DNA from: Methanosalsum zhilinae DSM 4017
Lineage (GTDB): Archaea; Halobacteriota; Methanosarcinia; Methanosarcinales; Methanosarcinaceae
Direction of reading: 5' to 3'
DNA length: 64,000 nt
NCBI RefSeq assembly: GCF_000217995.1
Contig: NC_015676.1
Span: 1,967,708-2,031,707, forward strand
Positions within the stretch are counted from its first letter, which is position 1; each line of letters begins with the position of its first letter. The position numbers and the translations under genes were made by a program. Below the pieces are notes generated by a model. It searched no databases. It was not told the origin of the DNA and saw nothing but the letters and a program-made list of their open reading frames with translations. Shown here piece after piece: positions 26,029-34,711 of the stretch.

Positions 26029-26487
26029 TTACTCTTTTTTTTCCGGATCTGAAATATTACAGACCTCACATGTTTCATCACAGGTATTTTCACCGTTATC
26101 AAAAATGTGATCAATCGCCCTTGTACCTTCTGCAAGAACAGCTGCGTTGGAAAGGGTACCTCCAATAAGGACAGCATCAAATATTTCTTCCTTTTTAATT
26201 CCAAGTCTTCTGGCAACCTTTATGTGCATTTTAAGGCAGTGCTCACACCGGAGTGCAGAAGATACGCCAATACAGATCATTTCAATCGTTTTTGGATCTA
26301 AGCGCTTAAATTCACGCATTATAGAATTATCATACATAACCTTGGGTATAAAGAGTTCAGGTTTATCCTTCATAAAATTCAGGATATATGGAACCTCACC
26401 ATACCAGTCCTCAATATCTTCAAGCAGTTGAGATACAGCTTCTTCAGGTTCTTCTTCCAGAACCTCTTTTATTTTTTCAGTATCCAT
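26029..26487 (-). CDS. AhpD/carboxymuconolactone decarboxylase-like protein with Cys-rich tail
   Basis: A 152-residue alpha-helical protein of the CMD/AhpD superfamily. The redox motif is C81-E-H-C84-x3-H88, which in AhpD works as a thiol peroxidase or disulfide reductase centre. The preceding segment (DWYGEVPYILNFM) is also family-like. The last 20 residues add three more cysteines (C136, C140, C143), a pattern that could bind metal or pass electrons and is not part of the basic fold. It lies 40 bases downstream of the mmp7 stop on the same strand. It may therefore be the last gene of the MCR-activation transcript. Confidence 0.85.
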   Translation of the reverse strand: MDTEKIKEVLEEEPEEAVSQLLEDIEDWYGEVPYILNFMKDKPELFIPKVMYDNSIMREFKRLDPKTIEMICIGVSSALRCEHCLKMHIKVARRLGIKKEEIFDAVLIGGTLSNAAVLAEGTRAIDHIFDNGENTCDETCEVCNISDPEKKE

Positions 26488-26527: not shown

Positions 26528-27463
26528 TCAGATAGAAAATCCTATATCTGATTTATTTTTGAGCTTTATTAATATATAATTTTTCATCATTGAGGGGGTA
26601 ATATCAGCAACTTCCGACAGCCTGAACCCCTCATCAAATTCTATATTCCCGATTTTTTCATGATACTGGTCATAGGGAAGTTTTACTCTGAGTCCATTAA
26701 GCTGGAGTGTGATAGGAGAGGGTGTGAGCACGTTTGATATATCTGGCACCTGATCCTGTATTTCTTTCATGACCCTTGCTGCGAGAACTACAGGAGGATC
26801 CTTTGAGAGATCTTCCCTGACACGATCAACCAGTTCACCTACCTTTTTGTTCATAACATCAAGTGCATTTAGTTCCTCACTTTTGCGCATACGGTGTGGA
26901 ATACGTCCAATATTGCCAATATACAGATCGGCTCCTGAAACATCTTCTGTTGAAAGTTCAGGACCTCCGGTTACAACAATCGGTATTTCGATCCCTTCAA
27001 ACAAACTCGTCTTTTTGTTCATAATACAGTCACTGAATATTCCAAAGGAGTAGAGTGCAATATCATGTTCATTGATCAGTTTTCTCTCATAGTCATTAAG
27101 CATTGCAACTCTTCGCCCCATACCCCTGGCAAGTCCGATCATATTGGTGTTGGCACCATCTCTTCTGAGATGTTCAGCAATATCACAGGCCGAATGCGGA
27201 AGATGGTGATATGCAAGAGTGGGAGACACAACTGCTATCTCAACCCCTGTTAAAGGAGCTTTTGTGAGTTTGCCAAGAAGGTTTCCAGCAAGATCCTGTA
27301 CCAGAGGCACATCTTCTTTTGGAATAAACATTATGAGTGTAACTTCGGTTGCTGCAGGCGTTTTCTGTACAAGATACCCGCCAATATCCTCCAGAAGTTC
27401 AAGCATCAGGCCATGCTTGTGAATACCACCTTCATATATATATGGTTCAAGTACCCTTGACAT
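26528..27463 (-). CDS. mmp7: Methanogenesis marker protein 7
   Basis: A 311-residue protein found only in methanogens and relatives. It is known as a component of the complex that activates methyl-coenzyme M reductase, together with McrC, Mmp17, Mmp3 and component A2. Recognisable segments are YEGGIHKHG near the N-terminus, LAYHHLPHSACDIAEHLRRDGA in the middle and TGGPELSTEDVSGADLYIGNIGRIP. It has several conserved Cys and His residues but no standard cofactor motif. It is the last mmp gene of the cluster and overlaps mmp17 by 17 bases. Confidence 0.93.
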   Translation of the reverse strand: MSRVLEPYIYEGGIHKHGLMLELLEDIGGYLVQKTPAATEVTLIMFIPKEDVPLVQDLAGNLLGKLTKAPLTGVEIAVVSPTLAYHHLPHSACDIAEHLRRDGANTNMIGLARGMGRRVAMLNDYERKLINEHDIALYSFGIFSDCIMNKKTSLFEGIEIPIVVTGGPELSTEDVSGADLYIGNIGRIPHRMRKSEELNALDVMNKKVGELVDRVREDLSKDPPVVLAARVMKEIQDQVPDISNVLTPSPITLQLNGLRVKLPYDQYHEKIGNIEFDEGFRLSEVADITPSMMKNYILIKLKNKSDIGFSI

Positions 27464-28061
27464 TACTATCGCCTCCGCTGATCTTTACTAGCATTTCATG
27501 GGCCTGCTCGATCCACTTATCCTGCATTACTTCCTCACTTGCAACAAATATGAATTGGTTATCTTCAAAATAATGATAACGTACTCTAAAACCTTCAGGT
27601 GCTGCCCTTATTGCCATCTCCGCAAGTTTTGACTGGAGCGTCTTCTGAGGATCATCCACAACCATATCAGCTATCACATCGATTTCGCTTTCCGGGTCAT
27701 CACACAGTATTTTCAGAGTTCTGCGCTCTGGCTGAAGAACATTTGGACGCTGATATTTCTCCCATAGGTTCCCCAGAAGCTGCGGGAGATATTTTTCAGT
27801 GTCCAGTTTGATGAGTACACCCTTTTCACCTGAATTTGTTGTATCAAGAGTGGAAAAATCAGAGACCTTTACCGGAGAAAAACTTTTTCTCAGAACAATC
27901 GCCATCTGAAAAACAGAATCCTGTGGCCTAATAGATACGTATATTCTTCCAATAGCATTTACAAGGTTCAGGTCCGATATAATATCTTCAAGTATCATTC
28001 TATAGCTACTGGCTTCAGAATCAATTGCAGATTCCACAATAAACTCTTCAAGGACATCCAT
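27447..28061 (-). CDS. mmp17: Methanogenesis marker protein 17
   Basis: A 204-residue methanogen-specific protein that co-purifies with the MCR activation complex. It has no recognisable enzyme motif; the fold looks alpha/beta, and the C-terminal half carries the family segment GFRVRYHYFEDNQFIF. An in-frame upstream start (28091) would overlap mmp15 and lacks a ribosome site. GGAGG nine bases before ATG 28061 fixes the start just after the mmp15 stop. It overlaps mmp7 downstream, so translation is coupled along the cluster. Confidence 0.92.
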   Translation of the reverse strand: MDVLEEFIVESAIDSEASSYRMILEDIISDLNLVNAIGRIYVSIRPQDSVFQMAIVLRKSFSPVKVSDFSTLDTTNSGEKGVLIKLDTEKYLPQLLGNLWEKYQRPNVLQPERRTLKILCDDPESEIDVIADMVVDDPQKTLQSKLAEMAIRAAPEGFRVRYHYFEDNQFIFVASEEVMQDKWIEQAHEMLVKISGGDSNVKGT

Positions 28062-28065
28062 TGAA

Positions 28066-29376
28066 TCAATCCTCCACAAAACCTGATGCAAGAAGTGCTG
28101 CCCCTACAGCACCTATCAGATGTGAGTTGGGAGGTACAAGAACATCGATCTTGAGCAGATCTCCCAGTGCACGGGGTATTCCTTCAATAAGAGAAGAACC
28201 GCCTACCAGTATCAGTGGCTCATTGACCTCAATTTCCTGCAGCTGCTGTTCAAATATCTGTTCCACTACACTGTAGCAGGCTGCAGCCGCAACATCTTCA
28301 GGAGACGCCCCCTTTGCAAGTGAGTTTACGAGTGACTGAATTCCAAAAACAATACAGTAGCTGTTCATTTGAATGTTTTCCTGCATACCTTTAACAGCCA
28401 GTGATCCAAGATCAGTGATATCAACTCCAAGCCTTTTGGCAGTCATTTCAAGAAATCGTCCTGATGCACCAGCACAGATACCACCCATTGTGAACATCCC
28501 GGGTATTGCATCCTCTACAGCTATTGCCTTATTATCCATCCCACCAATATCAATTACCGTTGCAGGACCCTTTTGCCTGTCTGCAAGATACACTGCACCC
28601 TTGGAGTTTACAGTGATTTCTTCCTGAACCAGCTGGGCATTAAAATGATCCCCTATAAGAAATCTACCATAACCTGTTGTTCCGATTGCCTGGATGTGTT
28701 CTCTATCAACATCTGCCTCATCCAGAGCCTTCTGAAGGGCTTTTTCTGCACTGTCTATAACCTTTACTGTAGGTACCCAGCCCTGTCCTATAATCTTGTT
28801 ATCACGCATTACCACAGCCTTGGTTGTGGTGGACCCGGAATCAATACCTGCTGTTAGGCCAGACTGGGATTCCCTGGCCAGCAAGTTCTTGCGCCTTGCA
28901 ACAGTTGTCAGTGCCTCCATACGGGTCAGTAGTGTAGCTGCTTTTGTCCTCTCAGTGAATGAATAGCTGATCACAGGTAAATCGGAATGATGGTGTATGT
29001 ATCTTCGAACTTCATTTCTGACAATTGCAGCTTCAGCGCATCTAAAGCACGTAGTTATAAGCACACCATCGACCTTTGTAACCCCTTCAATTATCGATTT
29101 TGTGCGAGCCATTACCAGTTTAAGGTCAGGACTTGCAACTTCCAGCCCAAAATCCCTGCCCACATTATCAAGTTCATATACTGATATCTCAGGATATACC
29201 AGTTCAGCATTGACATCCTTTGCTGCTGATTCAAGTTCTGCCTGCACACCGGAATATTCAGATCCGCATGATAGCAATGCAATCTTTACAGACCTTTCCT
29301 CTGATGCACGTTCTGTTCTTCTTTTCTGAACATCATACACAGGCAGTCCTTTACCCGACAGCTGTTCTCCTGTCAC
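28066..29376 (-). CDS. mmp15: Methanogenesis marker protein 15, ASKHA ATPase of the HgdC activator type
   Basis: A 436-residue protein in two parts. The N-terminal domain (about 30-165) has an ITTCFRC motif (C110, C113) and C37. The C-terminal domain (about 174-436) is an ASKHA ATPase like the activators of 2-hydroxyacyl-CoA dehydratases: phosphate loop [23 protein letters not shown], then C301 ([11 protein letters not shown]) and C341 (NSYCIVFG). Those two cysteines stand where HgdC dimers hold their bridging 4Fe-4S cluster. HgdC uses ATP to push an electron to very low potential. The same task is needed to reduce Ni(II)-F430, so an electron-injecting role is a sound inference. It overlaps mmp5 by four bases. 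Confidence 0.93.
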
Positions 29377-29879
29377 TGACCGTCCTCCTCAGAATTTTCA
29401 CTATTACCGTTCTGTGGCAGCGATTTCAAGAAATCTGCAATCTTTGATACAAATTCTCTGCCCTCATCCTCATTTCGAGGATAATTAACTTCAAGTACCG
29501 GAATATCCCTCTGTCTTATCAGATATTTGGTCAGCTCATTGGTCCTTGCACAACCCATGCATCCAAAAGCTATATCAGGTTCGTTAACGATTATTGCAGC
29601 CTCAGCCTCCTCTATCAGGGGGCCAACCAGAGCCATTCTGCCCCTTACACCAGAGGGAACCTCAACTGCTGCATACTTAAGTCCAAGCTTTGGTTCCCTG
29701 GGAGTAATGTTTAGAGGAGGGGAATCAATACCCACAGTATTTATTTTCTCCCGTATCTGTTCCATCATTACCAGTGGTCTATGTCCAAAGCGCCTTACAA
29801 GATCAGATAATATGAGGCTGGTTGTTGGATAAATCATGACTTTTGCCAATGGTCTCAACTCGCATTCATTCAGATTCAA
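29373..29879 (-). CDS. mmp5: Methanogenesis marker protein 5
   Basis: A 168-residue methanogen-specific protein. The conserved core is [16 protein letters not shown], with a CxxC that could bind metal or Fe-S, preceded by the [16 protein letters not shown] region. Its biochemical role is not established, but it is always tied to methanogenesis gene sets. The ATG lies inside the end of mmp6 (14-base overlap) and its stop overlaps the start of mmp15, so it is translated within the coupled cluster. Confidence 0.92.
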
Positions 29880-30312
29880 TAAGTTGCTTTAATTTCGATG
29901 CCTTTAATTTTTTCTTTTCTTTAAATCCTTCTGGAGAAGGAATTCCTTTTTCATATGCTTCCAGACCCTTACTTATAAGGGGAAGAATGTTGATCTCCTC
30001 CCTCAGAAAATGAAAACCTGGCCTTGGCCCTCCTCCACGAACAGCACGGCATCTTCTCTCATCTCCGGGAGAAAAACCCCTCTCTTTTACAAAAATATGA
30101 TTTGGATCCATAGAAACAACTTCATCTACAACTTTTTCCACAAATCTTCTGGGTCCCTCTACCATTATCCCGAAACATGATTCTTTCACCGTAACATCTG
30201 CCTTTGAATGATATATCTTCATAGCCACATCTGAGGGAAGGACATTTTCCGAGTTCACTACTATAATCCGGGTTATTATGTCATCAGTATCCATTTCATT
30301 TTCCGGAGACAT
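29866..30312 (-). CDS. mmp6: Methanogenesis marker protein 6
   Basis: A methanogen-specific protein of about 148 residues. The family signature is the CRAVRGGGPRPGFHFLREE stretch, with the preceding ERGFSPGDERR. An upstream in-frame codon (30342) exists, but ATG 30312 has GGGGGAAG just before it and overlaps the mmp3 end by only 17 bases. A second ATG at 30294 (MDTDD) lies just past the mmp3 stop and is also possible. The C-terminus is Lys-rich. The function is unknown; the context is MCR activation. Confidence 0.9.
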   Translation of the reverse strand: MSPENEMDTDDIITRIIVVNSENVLPSDVAMKIYHSKADVTVKESCFGIMVEGPRRFVEKVVDEVVSMDPNHIFVKERGFSPGDERRCRAVRGGGPRPGFHFLREEINILPLISKGLEAYEKGIPSPEGFKEKKKLKASKLKQLIESE

Positions 30313-31879
30313 CGTCTTCCCCCATATCAGGCATTTCCACAATATACATGAAATCTCCTTCCTTCAGGTTCTTAAGTTTATGTGGTTCAAGTACTTTACC
30401 TATGATATTTGTATTGGCAAATTTTTCTCCTGTTGGTCCAAAGAGATCATCATCTTCGATCTTGATCCCGATAGTTCCCATTCTTTTTGAGGCCTGATTT
30501 GTAATTCCAATATCCCCCGAATGAATTATTTTTGAGGGAGTGTTCTCAGGAAATATTTCTTTGTGTATTTTTAGATCTTTTTCAGGATCAAATATGTAGG
30601 TCGTGTCATAGATCATGTCTGCCTTCATGGTACCCACTCTGTTGAATTTGAGACCTACCGAGCTTCTGAAATAATCGATACTCTTTGGGGCAAGATCATC
30701 GTATAGTCTTATTTTAACCAGATTTGAAGATGGAATGGTTTTTACAATCACCTCAGATCCACCCAGTATATCAATTGTGGTTTCGGGCCTCTGCTCTACA
30801 ACAACTGCATCATCACTTTCATAACCCTCTACAATAATTTTCACACCGGATTCTAAGAGAGACTCACGAGCCTCATGTAAACTCATTCCTGAAAGCATTA
30901 TTTGGTCCGGCACTGTCAGTACAGTAAGTCTGTGACCAGGTCGGGCCATTTTTACAAGTTCGATACCCTCCTTTACATGACCAATCACAGAATGCATGAT
31001 CGTTGCCGGCATATCAGTTCTGGAAATGAACACCTTTCCTGTGCCATATCCTGCAGTTCTGACAGAAACCGAACCCTGTATACGTGGTTCAAAATTTTCA
31101 TACCTGCATTTTTCACCCTGAAGCCTGCGGTCGCAAATATAAGCACTTGCAGTTGCGTCAACTTTAAAAATGCCATTCTTTACAAGGGTAAAAAAATGTT
31201 TTACACCGTAGGGAGCATTGGGGGACATCTCTACACCGATAAATGAAAAGACCTGATCATCATGCTCAAGCCTGGTGGTGAGATCCGATGTGAATATACT
31301 ATTCCCTGCATGTTCCCACTTTATAACAGGTTTGATCTCAATGATCTCATCACCCTTATCAAGACCCATAAGAATATTCTTACCACTTACAACCCTGCCA
31401 AAGGCCCCATCCCTGGGCTGTCCGTATTCTCCGGTATGTTTCTGCCGGCATATTATAAGATGGGTATTATCAGTATCATATCCTCCTGCACCAAATAGAA
31501 CATCAAATTTATCAAAAGAAGCAGGCTCACGTTCGATACTGATATCAGCGGAGACCGATCCAAAAGCAACTGCATCCCTGCTCAGCCATCGCACACGCTT
31601 TCCTTCAAATTTTTTGAATAGTTGCACCCATGTCTGTACAGAATATTTCTCCAGATCATTTAGTTCGATCTCAACTTCTCCCTTTGATGTTATGATCCTG
31701 TAGCTTGTCACCTCTTCCTTTCGGTATTCCTCCGAAACTTTCAGAATACCTACAGAAGTGCCTGGGTTGTGAGGGGAATCTGTATGTTCCAGTGCGTCTG
31801 CTATCGTGGAGCCGCTTTTAAGTTCAACACTTTCTCCATTAACATTCAGAATAATGGTATCTTTATCCAGGATCCTCAT
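30296..31879 (-). CDS. mmp3: Methanogenesis marker protein 3
   Basis: A 527-residue protein specific to methanogens, reported in the MCR activation complex. The first 60 residues look like a small ubiquitin/ThiS-like beta-grasp (IILNVNGESVELKSGSTIADAL). A cyclophilin-like beta barrel part follows in the middle (HLIICRQKHTGEYGQPRDGAFGRVVSGKNILMGLDKGDEI). The C-terminal half repeats related strands (SGDIGITNQASKRMGTIGIKI). The protein carries a CDRRLQGEKC motif. The ribosome site AAGGAGG is ideal. It is second in the cluster, 38 bases after atwA. Confidence 0.93.
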   Translation of the reverse strand: MRILDKDTIILNVNGESVELKSGSTIADALEHTDSPHNPGTSVGILKVSEEYRKEEVTSYRIITSKGEVEIELNDLEKYSVQTWVQLFKKFEGKRVRWLSRDAVAFGSVSADISIEREPASFDKFDVLFGAGGYDTDNTHLIICRQKHTGEYGQPRDGAFGRVVSGKNILMGLDKGDEIIEIKPVIKWEHAGNSIFTSDLTTRLEHDDQVFSFIGVEMSPNAPYGVKHFFTLVKNGIFKVDATASAYICDRRLQGEKCRYENFEPRIQGSVSVRTAGYGTGKVFISRTDMPATIMHSVIGHVKEGIELVKMARPGHRLTVLTVPDQIMLSGMSLHEARESLLESGVKIIVEGYESDDAVVVEQRPETTIDILGGSEVIVKTIPSSNLVKIRLYDDLAPKSIDYFRSSVGLKFNRVGTMKADMIYDTTYIFDPEKDLKIHKEIFPENTPSKIIHSGDIGITNQASKRMGTIGIKIEDDDLFGPTGEKFANTNIIGKVLEPHKLKNLKEGDFMYIVEMPDMGEDDVSGK

Positions 31880-31917: not shown

Positions 31918-33528
31918 TTAAATATTTTCGGCTTCCATTCTCTCCTTTCCAGTAAATTCTAAAAGTACTTCTTCAGGTTCACCAATATCCACTATCTTGC
32001 CGTTTTTCATCAATGCTACCCTGTCACATACACTTTCAAGGAAATCGATATCATGAGAAACTATTATAAATGTATCGCCCATCTTCTCACGGGCATTGAG
32101 TATTGAAGAGGCAACTTCACCTTTTGTTACAGGGTCCATTGTGCCTGTGGGTTCATCCATTATCACAATATTGGGCTCCCTGATAAGCACCTGTGCAAGT
32201 GCAACCCTGTGCTTTTCCCCTTCACTGAGTTCAGTTGCCATTTTGGACAGTATATCCTTTGCTTTGCTCTCTGTGAATCCCGTTGCTGTAAGAGTTGTGA
32301 TAGCTTTTCTCACAGCAAGTTCATAGGGCAGGTCCAGACCAATTGATTCTGTGAGATTATCAATTACAGATCTCTGGATATACAATCCGTATTCCTGGTG
32401 AAGTATACCCATATACTGTGTGGCACGACCCCTATTGGAAGGACCCGGGACTGTCATGTCAATCCATTCATCACCAACTCTTACGTGCACGTCCCCGCCT
32501 GTTGGCTGGATATTACCAATCAATATCTTTGAGGTCGTGGTCTTACCTGCACCACTGGTACCTGCAAGTCCATAGATCTCTCCTTCATTGACCTCAAAAG
32601 AGATGTCATTTACAGCATATACAACCCCTCTGCTAACTGAGATATATTTTTTCACCAGATTTTCAACCTTGATTATAGGCTCCCCGCTCTCAGGCCTGGA
32701 GTTTCTTTCAATGGCTCCCACATGTTTCAGGAATTCATCTGCAACTTCTTTGGGATCACCCTCACTTACGATCTCGCCTTCTTCAAGAAAGATTGCCTTA
32801 TCAGCAACATCACTGATAACGTCAGGCCAGTGGGATGTGATTATCATTGACATATTGTAACGCCTGACAGCATTCATTATCACCTCATGGACTACATGTG
32901 AGGTATTTGGATCCAGGGTACCTGTAGGTTCATCTGCAAGCAGGAGCATTGGATTTTTCACAAGCTGCCTTGCAAGTACAACCCTCTGCTTCTCACCTCC
33001 GCTAAGATCACGGGCTACATGGGTCATTCGATGAGACAGCTGAACCTGATCCAGTATTTCCATTGCCTTTGAAAGAGCATCAGTACCGGTATATCCAATC
33101 TCAGTAAGTGCATTTGTCACATTGGAAATGACCTTCTCATCACCGTAAAGTGCAAAAGTACGCTGAAGCATGATTGCAATCCTTCGGGTTATCCTGCGTC
33201 TTACAGGGTCATGCACCGGAAGCTTTACAAAATCAGCGCTAAAAGGCTTGAGTTCACCTCCGCATTTTTCACATTTCTTGCCGGCTTTACTTGGAGGTTC
33301 AACATATTCACAATCCTCACAGCCTGCAAGATGGTATATAACTTCCCCACTGATATTACCGTATTCATCAAATCCTCGAAGCACATGCATCAGAACAGTT
33401 TTACCAGCACCGCTTTTACCAAGTATTCCAATAACTTCGCCTTCATTGATAGTTAGATTAATATTTTTTAAGACCTTTATATCCCCAAAGCTCAAATTGA
33501 GGTTCTTTATCTCTATAAATAATGACAT
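31918..33528 (-). CDS. atwA: AtwA (component A2), ABC-type ATPase for methyl-coenzyme M reductase activation
   Basis: A 536-residue soluble protein with two ABC ATPase domains and no membrane part. Domain 1 has Walker A GKSGAGKT (37-44), signature LSGGEKQR and Walker [10 protein letters not shown]. Domain 2 has [17 protein letters not shown] and [10 protein letters not shown] zinc-knuckle insert (C70, C73, C86, C89) interrupts domain 1 after Walker A. Component A2 supplies ATP hydrolysis for reductive activation of MCR. An upstream in-frame start (33591) is unlikely: GGAGG seven bases before ATG 33528 is decisive. It heads the atwA-mmp3-mmp6-mmp5-mmp15-mmp17-mmp7 cluster. Confidence 0.95.
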
Positions 33529-33596
33529 CTGTATCCTCCAGGTGGATAAATACGCATTTGAATCAAATATTCTCCTGCAGTTATTTATCATTTAAA

Positions 33597-33796: not shown

Positions 33797-34600
33797 TCAC
33801 ATGGAATTTACAACATCTATCACTTCTTTTATATCATGAACTATCACATCAGCTGAGCATTGCAGTTTTTCAGATACTTTTCCCTTACCTCCAGAGATCA
33901 ATACTCCCAGGTCAGCTGCCCTTAGAGCACGTATATCATTCAGTCCGTCACCGACCATGATAACTGAATCATATTCTGATTTAAGACTATGTATGATCTC
34001 CTCTTTAGTATCCACATTTGCTATTGCAAAAACCCTCTCAAAGGGGACACCGATCCTTTCTGCCAGTGGACCAAGATTTGTCATGCTGTCACCTGAAGCT
34101 ATATAAATATCAATACCTTTGACTTTCAAGGAATCAATGGTATCGACTGTATTGGAATATATTCTCCCACCGGTGCTCAGCACATAAGCAATTCTGCACA
34201 GCTCAGAGTCCAGTATCAGCCCTTCTGCAAAATAGAACACATTTCTGCATTTGTGACGCACCCTGTATATAACATCCTGAAGGGATTGGATTTTTACATG
34301 GGGGTTCTTTTTAAGGATAAAAAATGCTTCCTGTACAGAAAACGGCTCACCTGAGCAGCTAATATCAATGGAAACATTATTTTCACATATGTACTGTACA
34401 ATTGGGATGTGTTCATCAGCTTTGAGAATATTATCAGCATCTGTGTGCAGCATGACCAGTGCCTGTCCTGCTTTTTGTGCTACCAGTGAAATTGTTTCAA
34501 TACCATCCAGTATGATACCGGTATTCGGGTCCTTTGCCACACGATACATCTGCATAAGGGTCCCTGCACTGTCAAATACCACTGCGATATTTCCTGACAT
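33797..34600 (-). CDS. Soluble HAD-superfamily protein related to P-type ATPase P-domains
   Basis: A protein of about 267 residues with the HAD core: nucleophile D10 in VVFDSAGTL, a Ser/Thr motif near IYIASGDS, and the acidic motif VMVGDGLNDIRALRAADLG, which is very like the hinge of P-type ATPases. The residue two after the nucleophile is Ala (A12), not the Asp of ordinary HAD phosphatases or the Thr of ATPases; phosphonatases also have Ala here. The substrate is therefore open. ATG 34666 would add 22 residues of poor quality, so I start at 34600, just before the nucleophile strand. It may be related to the free-standing archaeal HAD ATPase-like proteins. Confidence 0.82.
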   Translation of the reverse strand: MSGNIAVVFDSAGTLMQMYRVAKDPNTGIILDGIETISLVAQKAGQALVMLHTDADNILKADEHIPIVQYICENNVSIDISCSGEPFSVQEAFFILKKNPHVKIQSLQDVIYRVRHKCRNVFYFAEGLILDSELCRIAYVLSTGGRIYSNTVDTIDSLKVKGIDIYIASGDSMTNLGPLAERIGVPFERVFAIANVDTKEEIIHSLKSEYDSVIMVGDGLNDIRALRAADLGVLISGGKGKVSEKLQCSADVIVHDIKEVIDVVNSM

Positions 34601-34711
34601 ATACTGAAAATTTGCATCATATATGATTAGTATTTCCACAGAACAGTGTGCCCTGCAAATTCCCAAATCATTTTATCTAGATGAAAGAATAATAGCTAAT
34701 AGTAGAAAATA

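Follow-up and report, generated by a model that had tools for sequence, protein, structure and literature searches.

Mmp15 is an HgdC-type activator ATPase fused to an acceptor half-domain and, with Mmp5, a candidate electron source for MCR activation

Introduction

The closest described relatives of the protein analyzed here are the HgdC-type activators. In HgdC, a single [4Fe-4S] cluster is shared by the monomers, each of which supplies two cysteines, and the hydrolysis of ATP pushes the electron onto the dehydratase (PMC8473912). Activators of this type pass their electrons to the HGD-D (PF06050) proteins, which comprise 2-hydroxyacyl-CoA dehydratases, benzoyl-CoA reductases and DCCP. The catalytic cluster of one of these, BzdO, is held by Cys95, Cys128 and Cys380 and lies between the two alpha/beta domains (PMC11971306).

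A second line of work concerns the activation of MCR. The MCR activation complex contains three L-type clusters; the outermost of them, FeSIII, sits at the interface of Mmp7 and Mmp17, close to the surface. The complex is active with Ti(III) citrate but not with DTT, its activity is low, and its authors infer that further Mmp factors are missing; the way in which the F430 nickel becomes reduced in vivo is called a major gap (PMC12176620, Nature 2025). The cryo-EM complex and McrC pull-downs contain A2, Mmp3, Mmp7 and Mmp17, while Mmp15 and Mmp5 were unreported. Since the complex is only weakly active and depends on Ti(III), a physiological donor is missing. No paper found in the open-access literature that we searched assigns Mmp15 a function, that of an electron injector included, and the NCBI model of its family, TIGR03286 (methanogenesis marker 15), is of the type hypothetical equivalog. 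Here, we describe Mmp15 and its neighbor Mmp5 in a window of 64,000 nucleotides from Methanosalsum zhilinae DSM 4017.

Results

The Mmp15 gene occupies positions 28066-29376 of the window on the minus strand (436 aa), and the plus strand is interrupted by stops throughout this region. The start codon is GTG with a GGAGG just 5' of it, and the start overlaps the stop of Mmp5. The product belongs to TIGR03286 with 728.2 bits against a curated cut-off of 455.75, covering profile positions 1-404 of 404. Residues 1-29 form a non-conserved N-terminal extension; conservation sets in at residue 30. Two domains follow: an N-terminal domain (residues 30-165, positions 28882-29289, minus strand) and an HgdC-type ASKHA activator domain (residues 174-433, positions 28078-28857, minus strand). 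The latter is recognized by TIGR00241, acyl-CoA dehydratase activase (315 bits, curated cut-off 125, residues 175-429), and by PF01869 (219 bits, cut-off 31.5). The AF2 model has a pLDDT of 89.8, and its closest fold is MbdQ of the class I benzoyl-CoA reductase system MbdP/MbdQ (PDB 9GAI), with Z 35.3 and 1.5 Å over 257 residues. The match to HgdC has Z 32.6, whereas unrelated ASKHA kinases reach about 20.8. The preliminary description had read a complete ASKHA ATPase from the letters of the sequence, and both the profile score and the predicted fold bear this out.

It had also pointed to two cysteines of the HgdC type, and these were found where it placed them. C301 (codon 28474-28476, minus strand) lies in the context GGICAGASG and C341 (codon 28354-28356, minus strand) in NSYCIVFG. 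In an HMM alignment they fall on the first and second cluster cysteines of HadI and HgdC (contexts KCAAGTGRF and STCTVF), and also on cysteines in MbdQ, MbdP and DCCP-R, so that all five solved activators agree. Both positions are Cys in 59/59, in 64/64 non-redundant and in 136/136 distinct Mmp15 sequences, and judged from these alignments the match is therefore not a product of chance. A further cysteine, C367 (codon 28276-28278, minus strand), is specific to Mmp15; it is likewise Cys in 136/136, and stand-alone activators mostly have H or I there. The count of 136 covers these three activator-domain cysteines, while all six cysteines of Mmp15 (C37, C110, C113, C301, C341 and C367) are invariant in the set of 59 sequences and in that of 64 non-redundant ones.

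Compared with HgdC/HadI (PDB 1HUX, 4EHT), Mmp15 shares the ASKHA fold over 256-258 residues at 1.8-2.0 Å, both cluster cysteines, and the phosphate-1 and TGYGR motifs. It differs in the added N-terminal acceptor half-domain, in the invariant C367 and in two loops. The phosphate loop GGQDxK, whose Gln is characteristic although not established as defining, is absent from Mmp15 and is replaced by GGMDNK (residues 278-283, positions 28528-28545, minus strand); its Met is present in 134/136 Mmp15 sequences and replaced by Leu in 2/136, while Gln is found in 18 of the stand-alone activators. The loop preceding the first cluster cysteine reads GGIC in place of the canonical NDKC. Because of these two replacements, Mmp15 is best regarded as a divergent activator clade and not as a standard member, and ATP coupling in Mmp15 may therefore differ. 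Mmp15 also forms a separate clade in a tree of 42 activator domains, where it occupies its own long branch with support 100/100; the sole additional row in this branch (L058) is an Mmp15 fragment at a contig end. Neither the two loop replacements nor the sixth invariant cysteine had been noticed in the preliminary description.

The N-terminal domain of Mmp15 is related to the cluster-binding C-terminal domain in HGD-D proteins such as HadB, BzdN and DCCP. A Pfam search with this domain gave no match at E<=1, and its identity thus rests on profile-profile and fold comparison. PF06050 matched neither Mmp15 nor Mmp5 at E<=1, and a full two-domain HGD-D protein was not recognized in either. Against an HGD-D alignment built from the same genome and relatives, the N-terminal domain matched the HGD-D C-terminal domain with 91% probability and E 1e-6, within an overall range of 91-94% and E 1e-6 to 2e-7. 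Mmp5 (DUF2112; 29373-29879, minus strand) matched the same domain with 92% and E 7e-7, which makes it a second half of this kind. When the HGD-D halves were compared separately, the match was to the C-terminal domain only, the N-terminal domain giving no significant match. The scores of the Mmp15 N-terminal domain and Mmp5 were 47 and 48, compared with 25 and 20 for the best of 60 column shuffles and about 16 for reversed profiles. Of 53 control families, none but HGD-D itself, Mmp15 and Mmp5 exceeded about 24, the other operon proteins lying below. PF04463 (TudS/DUF523), weighed as a possible closest single-domain relative, gave less than 1% probability in hhalign, although a missing match is weak evidence.

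An independent AF2 model of the N-terminal domain (pLDDT 89.3) has as its top four VIA-align neighbors the C-terminal domains of DCCP, MbdO/N and HadB/C (Z 11.9, 11.3, 10.7 and 10.1); the margin is modest, the next unrelated neighbor having Z 9.6. The neighbors of the predicted fold and the profile comparison converge on the same family and the same domain. The N-terminal cysteines named in the preliminary description are present and invariant, also in a 53-sequence alignment of this domain. C37 (codon 29266-29268, minus strand) follows the first strand within a loop, and C110-x-x-C113 (29038-29049, minus strand) is in the loop behind the strand formed by model residues 76-82; the model suggests that C37 and C110/C113 sit at the same edge of the parallel sheet. 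In Mmp5, C107 and C110 are invariant. The conserved cluster cysteine of the HGD-D C-terminal domain (31/35 in HGD-D) is matched in the alignment by C113 in Mmp15 and by C107 in Mmp5; Cys380 of BzdO would correspond to it by its position. The N-terminal domain and Mmp5 are HGD-D-like half-domains, each with a cysteine at this ligand position, and Mmp15 is therefore an HgdC-type activator ATPase fused to half of an acceptor. That half of the activator's redox partner is joined to Mmp15, and that Mmp5 is a second such half, had escaped the preliminary description.

This architecture sets Mmp15 apart from the known systems. MbdP and MbdQ are separate ATPase chains that work with a full BcrBC-type partner and are not fused to it. 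In DCCP/DCCP-R (PDB 7YYL, 6ENO), DCCP has two cluster-ligating alpha/beta domains, while Mmp15/Mmp5 have two separate halves that are both C-domain-like; the N-terminal domain of Mmp15 resembles the C-terminal domain of DCCP, and its activator domain resembles DCCP-R. The same genome also encodes a DCCP/DCCP-R-like pair (G000:C1:374395-376178; L182 4363-6188), consisting of an HGD-D protein and a stand-alone activator with the standard GGQDSK.

Mmp5 accompanies Mmp15 in the 29 genomes tested and lies directly upstream of it in 132/142 loci. The ten exceptions all belong to families f9 and f27, with one or both copies affected. In loci with a scattered operon (L177, L178, L180), the two genes are still neighbors. 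A natural fusion of Mmp5 and Mmp15 was sought and not found. Families f9 and f27 (L177 391-1608, L049; L174, L175) have two Mmp15 paralogues and one Mmp5, which in f9 adjoins the lower-scoring Mmp15 copy.

The operon has the order A2-Mmp3-Mmp6-Mmp5-Mmp15-Mmp17-Mmp7, which is kept in three archaeal groups. All genes lie on the minus strand: component A2 (AtwA), the ABC ATPase of MCR activation (31918-33591, TIGR03269); Mmp3, an MCR-associated protein (30296-31879, TIGR03268); Mmp6 (29866-30342, TIGR03272); Mmp17, a component of the activation complex (27447-28091, TIGR03291); and Mmp7 (26528-27463, TIGR03274, MCR_C), which is McrC-like and holds clusters of that complex. Hence, A2, Mmp3, Mmp17 and Mmp7 of the complex share an operon with Mmp15, while Mmp15, Mmp5 and Mmp6 are outside the solved structure (PMC12176620). 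The order Mmp5-Mmp15-Mmp17-Mmp7 is kept in 80 loci from the three archaeal groups, with exceptions at contig ends. In most Methanosarcinales and Methanomicrobiales loci, Mmp7 is followed by a carboxymuconolactone decarboxylase/AhpD-like gene (26029-26487, minus strand) with a CEHCLKMH motif and a Cys-rich tail, which might aid MCR activation as a thiol-redox helper. A HAD hydrolase-like gene (33797-34666, minus strand) lies upstream of A2, as in many Methanosarcinaceae and Methanomicrobiales loci.

Mmp15 hits above the cut-off come from genomes that carry McrA or divergent AcrA-like genes; the MCR-less relatives of these genomes gave none. In an Archaeoglobi-like genus, one member (G014) has neither McrA nor Mmp15, while three congeners (G063, G092, G127) have both. 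Mmp5 behaves likewise in this genus where tested, a clean joint loss or gain. In the Methanofastidiosia phylum Mmp15 is absent from 59/61 sampled members, a count made for Mmp15 alone. One MAG (G397) has Mmp15 with no McrA detected and is probably incomplete. Twelve sampled Mmp15 genomes, some of them incomplete MAGs, have McrA/AcrA but no mtrE; these are Methanomassiliicoccales-type genomes, Methanofastidiosia and alkane oxidizers. Mmp15 and Mmp5 thus track McrA/AcrA and not Mtr. The sequences read directly come from lineages other than Methanococci and Methanobacteria, and M. jannaschii, which served as control, scores above the cut-off.

Discussion

The preliminary description had proposed that Mmp15 acts in MCR activation, either by injecting low-potential electrons or by assembling L-type clusters. 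Fold, cysteines, operon and co-occurrence with MCR uphold an HgdC-type activator that serves MCR; the choice between electron injection and cluster assembly, however, is not one that the sequence makes. We put the chances at about even that Mmp15 is an ATP-driven injector of electrons dedicated to the reductive activation of MCR. Since it looks like an activator joined to half of an acceptor whose apparent other half, Mmp5, is usually encoded next to it, Mmp15 is a strong candidate for the electron source still missing from the picture of MCR activation. The fuller proposal, that Mmp15 and Mmp5 form a split counterpart of the electron-gun system of dehydratases and DCCP and are the physiological ATP-dependent donor to the L-cluster wire of MCR, is more tentative, and we hold it to be somewhat short of even.

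We infer the dimer, its clusters, the direction of electron flow and the docking partner as follows. Two Mmp15 chains would pair via their activator domains, each contributing C301 and C341 to a single shared [4Fe-4S] cluster. Ferredoxin would reduce this bridging cluster, and binding or hydrolysis of ATP would push a very low-potential electron onto a second Fe-S center, formed by the N-terminal domain (C37, C110, C113) together with Mmp5 (C107, C110). This center would be a split and shrunken form of the HgdAB/BcrBC/DCCP acceptor. The electron would then enter FeSIII at the Mmp7/Mmp17 surface of the activation complex and pass via FeSII and FeSI in Mmp7/McrC to F430, whose Ni(II) would be reduced to Ni(I). 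The absence of Mmp15 and Mmp5 from the complexes with A2, Mmp3, Mmp7 and Mmp17 could reflect a transient donor, but it is not positive evidence for one.

The main rival to electron injection is L-cluster assembly or insertion. Mmp15/Mmp5 might be an ATP-dependent scaffold or insertase that brings NifB-made [8Fe-9S-C] L-clusters into McrC/Mmp7, comparable to NifEN with NifH, a reading that we consider unlikely. It would fit with the L-clusters in the operon partners (PMC12176620), with a NifB encoded in the genome, with the 8-Fe double-cubane clusters of HGD-D relatives and with the change from GGQ to GGM, which suggests an altered ATP chemistry. However, the activator-cluster cysteines are retained and NifH-like maturases move electrons as well, and an ordinary Fe-S acceptor would be just as well served by five or six cysteines distributed over two half-domains.

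Most HGD-D proteins are catalytic and the half-domains have no known substrate, so Mmp15/Mmp5 might also act like a benzoyl-CoA reductase on a small molecule or cofactor that MCR needs, for example in removal of the heterodisulfide or modification of F430. This we regard as distinctly improbable: the two-domain HGD-D architecture with its CoA channel is absent, in keeping with the lack of a PF06050 match, and F430 variants vary across the MCR lineages while Mmp15 is common to them. Very doubtful, too, is a Mmp15 that has lost electron transfer and serves as an ATP-sensing assembly or regulatory factor, its cysteines being structural or ligands of another metal. The GGMDNK and GGIC departures and the long branch apart from all other sampled activators would be in line with such a loss, but six cysteines that stay invariant over very divergent sequences would be unusual in a protein with no metal or redox role. 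Corrinoid reactivation in MtrA or methyltransferases, as by RamA and RACo, which are ATP-dependent reductive activators too, is extremely unlikely, as the operon is that of MCR activation and the distribution, with its mtrE-less genomes, disfavors an Mtr/corrinoid role.

With electron injection as the preferred reading, Mmp15/Mmp5 provide a specific, widespread and genetically linked donor candidate with named residues. If true, this would explain the low potential that methanogens, ANME and alkane oxidizers reach, and alkyl-CoM reductases would also be switched on by Mmp15/Mmp5. The pair would probably be a required part for heterologous MCR. An MCR branch would be added to the HgdC/benzoyl-CoA reductase family, in the form of a previously unrecognized split version of the dehydratase/DCCP system. 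With Mmp15/Mmp5 as donor to the L-cluster wire, low-potential systems of the HgdC type and of the nitrogenase-cofactor type would meet in one pathway.
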